A DNA stretch of 46,248 nucleotides from Verrucomicrobiota bacterium. GTDB lineage: Bacteria; Verrucomicrobiota; Verrucomicrobiia; Limisphaerales; UBA8199. Position 1 is the first letter of the stretch. Every line of letters begins with the position of its first letter. Of the stretch, positions 974 to 4,015 are shown piece after piece. The notes beneath the pieces are model-generated. The model ran no database searches. It was not told the DNA's origin and saw only the letters and a list, made by a program, of their open reading frames with translations. The stretch spans positions 1 through 46,248 of the forward strand of contig JARKQH010000179.1 of assembly GCA_029974925.1 (NCBI GenBank), written 5' to 3'. The translations under genes and the position numbers were made by a program.

Positions 974-1834
974 GTGCAGACCGGCGAAGCGAGCATGGCC
1001 GAGACCGCGGGCGTGGTGCGGGGGCTGGAGGCGCCCCTGCCGCGATCCCTTTCGCACTTTTTGGGTCACCGGTTGTTCAATTTTCTGCTCACCACGCGAG
1101 GGCTGGGCGCGTTTGCGCTGATCACCTTGGGGGTGATTTTGAAGAAGTGGCGGGTGGCGCGGCGGGTGGTGTGGCCGATGATGTGCCGGGAGGTCGTGCG
1201 AGCCGGGCTGCGGTTGCTGCCGATGTTTCTGTACCTGTCGGTGGCGCTGGGGCTGGTGATCATCGGGCAAAGCGTCTCGTGGCTGACCCGGGTGGGAGCG
1301 ATCGAGTATCTGGGCGCGATCATGGTGCTGGTGGTGGTGCGGGAGCTGGGGCCGTTGATGGCGGCGCTTTTGGTGCTGGCGCGGGTGGGGACGGCGACGG
1401 TCATTGAACTGGGAACGGCGCGGGCCATGGGGGAGGTCGAGGCGCTGGAAGCGCTGGGGATTGACCCGGTTCATTACCTGGTTGCGCCGCGGGTCATCGG
1501 GATGGCGGTGGGGGTGTTTTCGCTGACGGTGTATTTGATTTTGGGCGCGCTGGTCAGCGGCTACCTGTGGGCGTTTGTGCAGGATGTTCCGCTGCTGCCG
1601 GGCGATTATTTTCAGCAACTGGCGGGCGCGTTGAGCTGGCCGGATTTTGTGCTGCTGGGTCTCAAGACGACGGCCTTTGGGTTCATCATCGCCGTGGTGA
1701 CCTGTTATCATGGGCTGGCCCAGCCCCTGCGGTTGGAGGAGGTGTCGGCGGCCACCGTTCGCGCGGTGGCGCAGAGCGTGATTGTGTGCGCGCTGGTGGA
1801 CGCGGGGTTCATCGTGGTTTACCTGACGGTCTGA
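974..1834 (+). CDS. mlaE: Mla-type phospholipid ABC transporter permease
   Basis: Integral membrane permease of the MlaE/YrbE family, which with an ATPase and an MCE protein moves phospholipids between inner and outer membrane. The 286-residue product has the family hallmark in its middle third (RELGPLMAALLVLARVG, then IELGTARAMGEVEALEALG, matching the usual EQIDAL-type segment) and about five hydrophobic membrane segments. The frame opens at a GTG at 974. An ATG at 995, preceded by a purine-rich stretch, is an equally good start and would give 279 residues. The stop overlaps the next gene's ATG (ATGA at 1834), so the two are translationally coupled. Order permease-ATPase-MCE is the classic Mla arrangement; mlaB and mlaC are not visible here. 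Confidence 0.88.
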   Translation: MQTGEASMAETAGVVRGLEAPLPRSLSHFLGHRLFNFLLTTRGLGAFALITLGVILKKWRVARRVVWPMMCREVVRAGLRLLPMFLYLSVALGLVIIGQSVSWLTRVGAIEYLGAIMVLVVVRELGPLMAALLVLARVGTATVIELGTARAMGEVEALEALGIDPVHYLVAPRVIGMAVGVFSLTVYLILGALVSGYLWAFVQDVPLLPGDYFQQLAGALSWPDFVLLGLKTTAFGFIIAVVTCYHGLAQPLRLEEVSAATVRAVAQSVIVCALVDAGFIVVYLTV

Positions 1835-2625
1835 TGGCTGAGCCCCCTTTCAACCCTGCGGATGCCGTGATCCTGATGAAAGGCGTCACCGCCGGGGCCT
1901 TGCGCCAGCCGGCCAGGCCGGTGGCGGTGGACGTGAACTGGGAGGTTCGGGCGGGCGACTATTGGGTCATTGGCGGATTACAGGGGGCGGGCAAGACGGA
2001 TTTGCTGATGATGGCGGCGGGGCTGATGCCGCCGCTAAGGGGGACCTATCAGTTCCTGGGCGAGCGGATGCCGATCTTCGAGGAGGGACGCCTGGCACAC
2101 CGGCTGCGGCTGGGGCTGGTTTTTGACACCGGCCAATTGTTCAACCACCTGACGGTGGCGGAGAACATCGCGCTGCCCTTGCGGTATCATCAGAATCTGT
2201 CGGCGGGGGAGGCGGCGGCCCAGGTGCGGGAATTGCTCGAATGGTGCGGTTTGGAATCGCGGGCCGACACGACGCCGGGGACGCTGGGGAGAAACTGGGC
2301 GAAACGGGCGGGGCTGGCGCGGGCGCTGGTTTTGAAGCCGGAAGTGCTGCTGCTGGACGCGCCGATCAGCGGCCTGGATTTGCGGCAGACGCACTGGTGG
2401 CTGGACTTTCTGGGCCAGTTGCACCGTGGCCACCCGTTTTTGGGAGGGCGGCCCATGACTTTGGTGGCCACCGCCTCGGACCTGCGGCCATGGAAGGGGC
2501 GGGCGCGACAATTTGCGGTGTTGCGGGACGACCGGTTTGTGGTGCTGGGGGACTGGGCCCAGCTCGAAGCCGCCAGCCGGGATTTGGCGCGCGAACTCTG
2601 GGCGGCGGAGGCGGGCGGCGATTGA
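1834..2625 (+). CDS. mlaF: Mla-type ABC transporter ATP-binding protein, degenerate catalytic motifs
   Basis: 263-residue nucleotide-binding subunit expected to drive the MlaE permease from the cytoplasmic face. Walker A is intact (GLQGAGKT, residues 48-55). Several other hallmarks are changed. The signature LSGG reads LGRN (151-154). The Walker B catalytic glutamate is alanine (LLLDAPISGLD, A176). The switch histidine region reads VATASD (211-216) with no histidine, and the Q-loop glutamine is not at its usual place (LVFDTGQLF). The D-loop SGLD is kept. The reading frame is full length and lies between two intact partner genes, so it is not an obvious pseudogene. The ATG start overlaps the mlaE stop. 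It may hydrolyse ATP poorly or pair with another ATPase; that is inference. Confidence 0.82.
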   Translation: MAEPPFNPADAVILMKGVTAGALRQPARPVAVDVNWEVRAGDYWVIGGLQGAGKTDLLMMAAGLMPPLRGTYQFLGERMPIFEEGRLAHRLRLGLVFDTGQLFNHLTVAENIALPLRYHQNLSAGEAAAQVRELLEWCGLESRADTTPGTLGRNWAKRAGLARALVLKPEVLLLDAPISGLDLRQTHWWLDFLGQLHRGHPFLGGRPMTLVATASDLRPWKGRARQFAVLRDDRFVVLGDWAQLEAASRDLARELWAAEAGGD

Positions 2626-2722
2626 CGAGGATGAAAGAATTTGAAAAGGTGCAGGCCTCCGGAATGAAACACGGCACCCCGATGCCCGTCTCCAACCCGA
2701 CTCTGAGGGTCGTTGAAGGTTT

Positions 2723-4015
2723 ATGGCGCTCCAGGACCTGACCCCTCAGTTGCGCACGCGGCTCAGCCGGATGGAGCGGGCGGTGGGCTGGTTCGTGGCC
2801 CTGGCCATCGGACTGCTGCTGTTCGGATTCGCCTATTACGTTTACAGCACCGCCCAGCGCAAAGGGTGGTTCAAAACCAAGGCGCCCTATTTCACGTTTA
2901 CCGACCGGGCCACAGGCCTGAAAGTCGGCGACCCCGTGCGGCTGATGGGGTTCGACGTCGGGCAGATCACCCGGATTGACGCCCAGCCGGCGGACGATTT
3001 TCGTTACAACGTGTATGTCGAGTTTGAAATTCAGTCTCCCTACTACGGTTACTTGTGGACGGAAGGGTCGCGCGCCAAGGTCACCACGGCGGATTTTCTG
3101 GGCAAGCGCCAGTTGGAGGTCACCAAAGGGTCCGGCGGTTACCCCACCTACATATTTCATCCGCTGCGGACGGTGACTCTCGTTCAGGCGCGGAGCCTGC
3201 CCGGTTTATCAAATTGGGCGTTTGGCCAGGAGCTCCACTATCCCGACAGCATAGACCTTGCGGCGCGCCCGCTGGAGCCGCTGTCGGAGGAAAAGCTCGC
3301 CCTGGCGCAGCGATTGGGGGTTCAGTCCTTCACGGTGCTGGACCGCCGGGAAACGAGGAAAATGATGACGGGGATGTGGAACGACAAGGAGGGCCGTTAC
3401 GTGCCGTTTGAGCGCGGCACCAGTTACTGGTTGCTGTCGGATGAGTCTCCCGCGGTGACCGAACGGCTCGAGCGACTGGTTGCCCAGCTCGAAAAGGCGC
3501 TGCCGGGCGTTCTGGCTCTGACCAACCAGCTCGGCGCGGTGCTCTCGAACACGGCCAGCTTGACCGCCAACCTGGACGAGATTGCCCAAAACGCGCGGCC
3601 GGCGGTGAGCAACCTGGCGGCGCTGACTGCCGCGCTGGACCAGCCCGGGGCGCTGGGCGAATGGCTGTTGCCAACCAATCTGAATCGTCAGTTGGGGGTT
3701 ACCTTGGACCAGGCTAGCAACACGCTGGGCCAGGCGGGCGCCACGCTGGCCAGCGCGAATACCAATCTGAGCCTGCTGGTGGCAAACCTCAATCGTTCCC
3801 TGGACAACCTTGCGGGCATTACCAGCAATTTGAACCAGCAGGTGCAGGCCAGCACCAACATGCTGCCGGCCATTTCCGAAGCCGTCCGCCATGCGGACGA
3901 GCTCATCCAAGGGCTCAAACGGCATTGGCTCCTTCGTTCGGCATTCAAGAGCCCCGCCACCAACGCTCCACCCCCCCAGCCCTCGCTGCGCTCGCCCAAG
4001 GACCGGAACCGCTGA
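2723..4015 (+). CDS. mlaD: MCE-domain lipid-binding protein of the Mla transporter
   Basis: 430-residue MlaD-like protein. A short cytoplasmic N-terminus is followed by one membrane anchor (about residues 22-42) and a single MCE domain (about 55-150, with GLKVGDPVRLMGFDVGQI, typical of the family). A long C-terminal region rich in Asn, Leu, Ala and Thr contains repeated short heptad-like segments (about 250-400) and probably forms a helical bundle or coiled coil. It ends with a Pro-rich tail. The protein is longer than E. coli MlaD (183 residues) and closer in shape to the longer MCE proteins that span the periplasm. It lies 97 bp after mlaF and completes the permease-ATPase-MCE set. Confidence 0.85.
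   Translation: MALQDLTPQLRTRLSRMERAVGWFVALAIGLLLFGFAYYVYSTAQRKGWFKTKAPYFTFTDRATGLKVGDPVRLMGFDVGQITRIDAQPADDFRYNVYVEFEIQSPYYGYLWTEGSRAKVTTADFLGKRQLEVTKGSGGYPTYIFHPLRTVTLVQARSLPGLSNWAFGQELHYPDSIDLAARPLEPLSEEKLALAQRLGVQSFTVLDRRETRKMMTGMWNDKEGRYVPFERGTSYWLLSDESPAVTERLERLVAQLEKALPGVLALTNQLGAVLSNTASLTANLDEIAQNARPAVSNLAALTAALDQPGALGEWLLPTNLNRQLGVTLDQASNTLGQAGATLASANTNLSLLVANLNRSLDNLAGITSNLNQQVQASTNMLPAISEAVRHADELIQGLKRHWLLRSAFKSPATNAPPPQPSLRSPKDRNR

Follow-up and report, generated by a model that had tools for sequence, protein, structure and literature searches.

The window analysed here is a 46,248-nucleotide stretch of contig JARKQH010000179.1 from a Verrucomicrobiota bacterium (assembly GCA_029974925.1). 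On its forward strand, at 974–4015, it carries a three-gene unit encoding an MlaE permease, an MlaF-like ATP-binding cassette (ABC) ATPase and a long MCE protein. The ATPase belongs to an order-wide family that has largely kept the P-loop lysine and the Walker B aspartate but has lost the residues on which hydrolysis depends in MlaF. On balance we favour the reading that this subunit, as the nucleotide-binding domain (NBD) of a dedicated MlaE–MlaF–MCE system, would hold nucleotide, hydrolyse little or none of it, and gate or brace a passive lipid conduit.

Hydrolysis motifs are absent from the ATPase

An earlier note, made from the letters of the window, had described the reading frame at 1834–2625 as an Mla ATPase with an intact Walker A motif, an LGRN signature, alanine in place of the Walker B glutamate and no switch histidine; we confirmed each of these features in a frame that adjoins MlaE (Table 1). 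A further loss, beyond that first description, affects the Q-loop glutamine, which is replaced by D98. The structural hallmarks of an ABC ATPase are present, namely an NBD fold with RecA-like and helical subdomains, the Walker A lysine and the Walker B aspartate, and both an MlaE and an MCE gene adjoin the ATPase gene, as in Mla/MCE systems. The hallmarks of a catalytic MlaF, namely the Walker B glutamate (E170 in Escherichia coli), the LSGGM signature and the switch histidine, are all missing. Against the NCBIfam MlaF equivalog PRK11831 the protein scored 86.5 bits (curated cut-off, 441), and for all NCBIfam models shown its score was well under the curated cut-off.

The AlphaFold model of the ATPase has a mean predicted local distance difference test (pLDDT) score of 93.6, with the Walker B strand at residues 171–174. 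Its best structural matches are MlaF structures (6xbd_I, VIA Z 28.9, root-mean-square deviation 2.4 over 246 residues). A shifted alignment that would supply the missing residues from elsewhere, which the earlier note had named as grounds for abandoning its claim, was rejected: alignment with both canonical MlaF proteins of the same genome, profile alignment with E. coli MlaF and the AlphaFold model all place the changes at the catalytic positions. Because the strand of Walker B and the helices of the P-loop and the signature sit as expected in the model, no such shift provides the residues.

We selected family members with a profile built from 29 of them at a cut of 170 bits, resulting in 173 open reading frames (ORFs) that were merged into 128 members after identical core segments were collapsed; this choice may bias the tallies, as members with regained canonical motifs might score lower. 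The canonical set (n = 29) comprised matches of 130–170 bits in the loci collected. Scored for four hydrolysis marks (Q-loop glutamine, signature GG, catalytic glutamate and switch histidine), 107 of the 128 members keep none, 21 keep one and none keeps two; among the canonical proteins, 28 of 29 keep all four and one keeps three. Since 128 distinct homologues share the same kind of losses, sequencing error or chance does not account for them. Position 176, that of the catalytic glutamate, is most often asparagine (N 88, D 11, S 7, H 6, E 6, K 3, G 2, A 2, T 2, C 1). At the switch position the canonical set has histidine in 28 of 29 proteins, the remaining one being a gap, and a few more family members have a histidine elsewhere within 213–217. 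The three gaps at Walker A are rows that are cut or broken. In one member (L036), the Walker B aspartate is also replaced, by alanine, with the P-loop lysine kept.

The P-loop lysine and the Walker B aspartate belong to the most conserved residues of the protein. By column entropy over 248 columns, D175 ranks 4 and K54 ranks 13, whereas positions 176, 98, 215 and 152–154 rank 104–184. Six aromatic residues specific to the family (W36, W44, Y118, W188, W189 and W220) occur in 113–127 of the 128 members (88–99%) and in 0% of canonical MlaF. The ratio of nonsynonymous to synonymous substitution rates (dN/dS) was 0.11–0.35 in all nine close pairs that passed the similarity cut, and 0.03–0.18 for the MlaE gene in the eight pairs measured; selection on the ATPase gene is purifying. 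From these patterns, nucleotide binding appears to have been kept under selection and the hydrolysis machinery not.

An order-wide paralogue in which the losses are fixed

A profile search across 320 genomes of the order detected the family in 228, and in 127 of the 154 of good quality. In a survey of 387 genomes of the phylum, two reached family level (390 and 340 bits), both of them from this order, and all others scored 162 bits or less, a clear separation from canonical MlaF. When placed in a tree together with canonical MlaF and further ABC proteins, the family formed a single clade (Shimodaira–Hasegawa-like approximate likelihood ratio test, 99; 124 of the 128 members, shorter rows left out). 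Most named records with homologous loci bear the labels Verrucomicrobia subdivision 3, Limisphaerales or Pedosphaera, and judging by these labels the order would be Limisphaerales. A few metagenome-assembled genomes with homologous loci are labelled Akkermansia, Klebsiella, a Proteobacterium or Methylacidiphilum; since their sequences group within the clade, we took them to be mislabelled bins. Frame breaks or runs of N occur in a few members (L053, L205, L288 and L291).

Canonical paralogues provide a control within the same genomes. The genome of the window, a draft of 487 contigs that is 97.6% complete, has two further MlaE–MlaF–MCE sets (contigs C304 and C323), each with canonical MlaF motifs. 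We extended the comparison to 25 family-bearing genomes, hand-picked from 42 positive ones, and found at least one canonical MlaF in 25 of 25. Together with the genome of the window, these yielded 49 distinct canonical paralogues, all of which keep the lysine, aspartate, glutamate, SGG and histidine, with the glutamine kept in 48. A relaxation of all MlaF genes across the order was therefore rejected, the paralogues of these genomes being intact. The earlier suggestion that the clade tolerates the changes is thus borne out in a specific form: the fixed losses concern one paralogue, beside canonical copies that retain their motifs.

A long MCE partner with a conserved cytosolic tail

Among 80 named loci with the family, MlaE is found in 77 and MCE in 73, and a downstream MCE gene is present for 116 of the 128 ATPase members. 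In the window, the MlaE stop and the ATPase start share one base (TGATG). The coupling-helix stretch of MlaE, ELGTARAMGEVEALEALGIDPVHYLVAPR, aligns with both canonical permeases of the same genome and is conserved; in the MlaE family alignment of 40, the mean column identity is 63%. The three-gene unit showed neither an MlaB nor an MlaC gene. Split units also occur: three loci (L131, L100 and L110) have ATPase and MCE with no adjoining MlaE, and one (L070) has MlaE and ATPase with no adjoining MCE.

In its AlphaFold model, the MCE protein consists of a transmembrane helix, the MCE domain, an extra ordered domain (residues ~150–243) and long helices at 245–376, the last modelled at lower confidence; in the model, these helices could form a tunnel. 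The extra domain (window ~3170–3451) separates the MCE domain from the helical region, is modelled mostly with pLDDT >90, and is not present in the two canonical MCE proteins of the same genome. A fragment covering most of it gave no Pfam match up to an E-value of 0.1, and with the whole MCE model as query the top Foldseek matches were MCE proteins.

The most conserved piece of the system is the N-terminal tail of the MCE protein (DLTPQLRTRL), which is confined to this order in the surveys made. The tail of the window protein reads MALQDLTPQLRTRLSRME and is taken to be cytosolic because of the MlaD topology. The pattern M-A/P-LQDLTPQLRTRL matched 115 of 116 partner MCE proteins, the last one having DLTPNLRT, whereas 0 of the 32 MCE ORFs taken from loci that lack the ATPase family matched it. 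A query with the first 60 residues found the tail in two of the 387 phylum genomes, the same two as for the ATPase, and in 236 of the 320 order genomes.

Across these 320 genomes, in an overlap compiled by eye from the two genome lists, 225 carry both ATPase and tail, 11 the tail only, three the ATPase only and 81 neither. We inspected five of the 11 tail-only genomes and found no tail-bearing MCE beside a canonical MlaF in these five: in two (L288 and L291) a frame break or an N run interrupts the adjoining MlaF-family gene, in one (L290) the contig ends, and in two (L287 and L289) no MlaF lies within the stretch fetched. In two further genomes (G003 and G515) no MCE adjoins the ATPase locus and a tail-bearing MCE lies on another contig; retention of both although they lie apart suggests a functional partnership. 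The tail probably docks on the modified MlaE/MlaF base.

Table 1 Features of the three-gene unit in the window and their state across the ATPase family
Feature	Position	Strand	Details
MlaE-type permease	974..1834	+	286 aa; GTG start, ATG at 995; PF02405 E 1.2e-49
MlaF-like ABC ATPase subunit without hydrolysis motifs	1834..2625	+	263 aa; PF00005 E 3.8e-20
Walker A (P-loop) GLQGAGKT, residues 48–55, retained	1975..1998	+	K54 in 122/128 members (3 R, 3 gaps)
Q-loop position, Gln to Asp (D98)	2125..2127	+	Members: E 58, D 35, Q 6 of 128; canonical Q 29/29
Signature position, LGRNW (151–155) for LSGGM	2284..2298	+	SGG in 0/128 members, 29/29 canonical; R153 in 92/128
Walker B D175 retained, catalytic Glu position A176	2356..2361	+	D175 in 127/128
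Switch (H-loop) position, His to Ser215; TASD (213–216) for T/S-H-D	2476..2478	+	Members: D 71, S 15, E 15, H 4 of 128
Long MCE (MlaD-like) protein	2723..4015	+	430 aa; PF02470 E 1.5e-12
Near-invariant cytosolic N-terminal tail of the MCE protein, residues 1–18	2723..2776	+	Pattern in 115/116 partner MCE proteins

Outside the unit, the next gene of the window, encoding ThrC, turned up in none of the 51 named loci long enough to include it, and the three window genes after ThrC were found in 0 or 1 of 80 loci, most of which are too short to reach that far. The intergenic stretch upstream of the operon (209–871) contains direct repeats of 72–111 bases that are 83–93% identical, as well as near-identical GC-rich inverted repeats.

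Comparison with characterized transporters

The window ATPase shares with MlaF of the MlaFEDB systems of E. coli, Pseudomonas aeruginosa and Acinetobacter baumannii its fold, its MlaE and MCE partners, the P-loop and the Walker B aspartate, with ~27% identity over the structural alignment. It differs in lacking LSGGM, the catalytic glutamate, the switch histidine and the Q-loop glutamine. In the portion of PMC7367683 available to us, E. coli MlaF requires K47 and E170 for function: the K47A and E170Q variants fail to complement, and the canonical Mla system therefore needs turnover. The available part of PMC7790496 describes the MlaE–MlaF contact as made via a cytoplasmic coupling helix, with the MlaD transmembrane helices packing around MlaE.

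A likeness is also found in the minimal MlaEFD systems with a long MlaD in Veillonella and most diderms, which, as far as the excerpted text of PMC10665443 goes, share with the window three genes, an MCE protein with a helical extension and an operon without MlaA or MlaC; the long MlaD proteins are described there as transenvelope bridges. Compared with these systems, the window ATPase is without hydrolysis motifs, and a cytosolic tail and an extra domain distinguish the window MCE protein.

Residues of Walker B and the signature are likewise non-canonical in nucleotide-binding site 1 (NBS1) of CFTR and in MRP1, TAP and TM287/288, where, according to the sections of PMC7756269 consulted, nucleotide binding is retained and ATP on CFTR NBS1 stays for minutes unhydrolysed. 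Degenerate ABC sites are already well known in heterodimeric or fused proteins; whereas these four keep one consensus site (PMC7756269), a homodimer of the window ATPase would have none. The present case is an MCE-linked family without any consensus site, fixed in most genomes of the order beside intact paralogues. Among open-licence papers searched in full text, we found none describing such a family or any MlaF family without hydrolysis motifs.

A nucleotide-holding subunit as the favoured mechanism

The mechanism that we favour would operate in a third Mla set, a dedicated MlaE–MlaF–long MCE system beside the two canonical sets. As a homodimer, the ATPase would have lost the glutamate, signature, histidine and glutamine at both sites, and it is for this reason that a nucleotide-holding subunit is favoured. 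Such a subunit would most likely bind Mg-nucleotide with little or no hydrolysis, and may hold or gate the MlaE dimer instead of driving it. Lipid might then follow its own gradient by way of MlaE and the tunnel of the long MCE protein. From its motifs, the window ATPase is likely to turn over little or no ATP, in line with what the earlier note had supposed. Phospholipid enters the MlaE cavity without ATP, according to the part of PMC7784689 available. The reading draws on the motif tallies, the retained residues, the family-specific aromatic residues, the single clade, the dN/dS values, the three-gene unit, the predicted fold and the co-occurrence of ATPase and tail described above. The MCE conduits of LetAB and PqiABC function with no ABC ATPase, but these use LetA/PqiA membrane proteins, not MlaE with an ABC subunit.

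Several observations weigh against this reading. In the same excerpt of PMC7784689, E. coli MlaF E170Q loses ~80% of its ATPase activity in vitro and ~20% is left, so loss of the glutamate alone does not equal zero ATPase. The catalytic position is also not uniformly empty, as six members have glutamate at 176, none of which retains the signature or the switch histidine. Of the 128 members, 123 have an acid at one or more of the Q-loop, Walker B and switch positions (D98 in the window protein), which could hint at relocated chemistry. Finally, the columns of the A-loop aromatic align poorly, and the putative nucleotide binding therefore rests on conservation of the P-loop.

The main rival is a rewired ATPase that still hydrolyses ATP, with the carboxylate moved to the Q-loop (D/E98) or the switch (D/E215) and R153 of the altered signature acting in trans, an explanation that we regard as unlikely. 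Arginine fingers act in other P-loop ATPases, and here R153 is found in 92 members, an acid at 98 in 93 and an acid at 215 in 86. Just five of the 128 members have no acid at 98, 176 or 215, where ~10 would be expected if the positions were independent, and acids at 98 and 176 tend towards mutual exclusion: 98 is acidic in 5 of the 17 members with an acid at 176, compared with 88 of the other 111 (Fisher P = 8e-5, uncorrected for relatedness). However, most acid-176 members without an acid at 98 belong to few clades, and the Fisher test ignores relatedness. Moreover, the residues at the acid positions are far more variable than the P-loop, unlike a catalytic residue, and the window protein is acidic at 98 alone. 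A more elaborate version, slightly less probable still in our judgement, has the general-base carboxylate relocated from Walker B to the Q-loop or switch, the signature arginine of the opposite subunit replacing the Ser-Gly contact to the γ-phosphate, and the MCE tail forming part of a nucleotide or gating site. If true, such a rewired site, including the MCE tail, would represent a type of ABC hydrolysis or nucleotide sensing for which we found no description.

Loss of the signature, glutamate, histidine and glutamine together would also suit a domain that just braces the permease and for which nucleotide is irrelevant, and the family-specific tryptophans suggest a structural role. Yet such a scaffold gives no reason for keeping the P-loop lysine, which 122 of 125 readable members have, or the Walker B aspartate, kept in 127 of 128, and we consider it improbable.

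Pairing with another ATPase, as the earlier note had proposed, would make canonical MlaF the source of catalysis in a heterodimer. Known asymmetric ABC transporters have a weak Walker B on one chain and a weak signature on the other, leaving one consensus site. Candidate partners do exist, with two canonical mlaF genes in the genome of the window and at least one in every family-bearing genome tested, but both of those in the window's genome have a permease and an MCE gene of their own. Pairing would not rescue catalysis in any case, because the Walker B glutamate and the signature are both lost on one chain, so that no consensus site can form with any partner; the two losses do not lie on different chains, and no member of the 128 keeps two marks. 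We therefore view a catalytic heterodimer as very unlikely. A decaying gene or an assembly error, for which the few members with frame breaks or N runs might speak, is highly improbable, given the occurrence of the family in most good-quality genomes, the low dN/dS and the new residues conserved at 88–99%.

Implications

The use of ATP by Mla-type systems is a matter of debate, as is the direction of their lipid transport. A paralogue present across an order that retains a permease, a lipid tunnel and a P-loop but no hydrolysis motifs is a natural experiment, asking whether an MlaE–MCE conduit can run on nucleotide binding alone, or without energy. The MCE tail DLTPQLRTRL offers a simple marker for the system and a concrete candidate for the interaction. 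On the favoured reading of a nucleotide-holding subunit, the system would be a bacterial ABC transporter with zero consensus sites.
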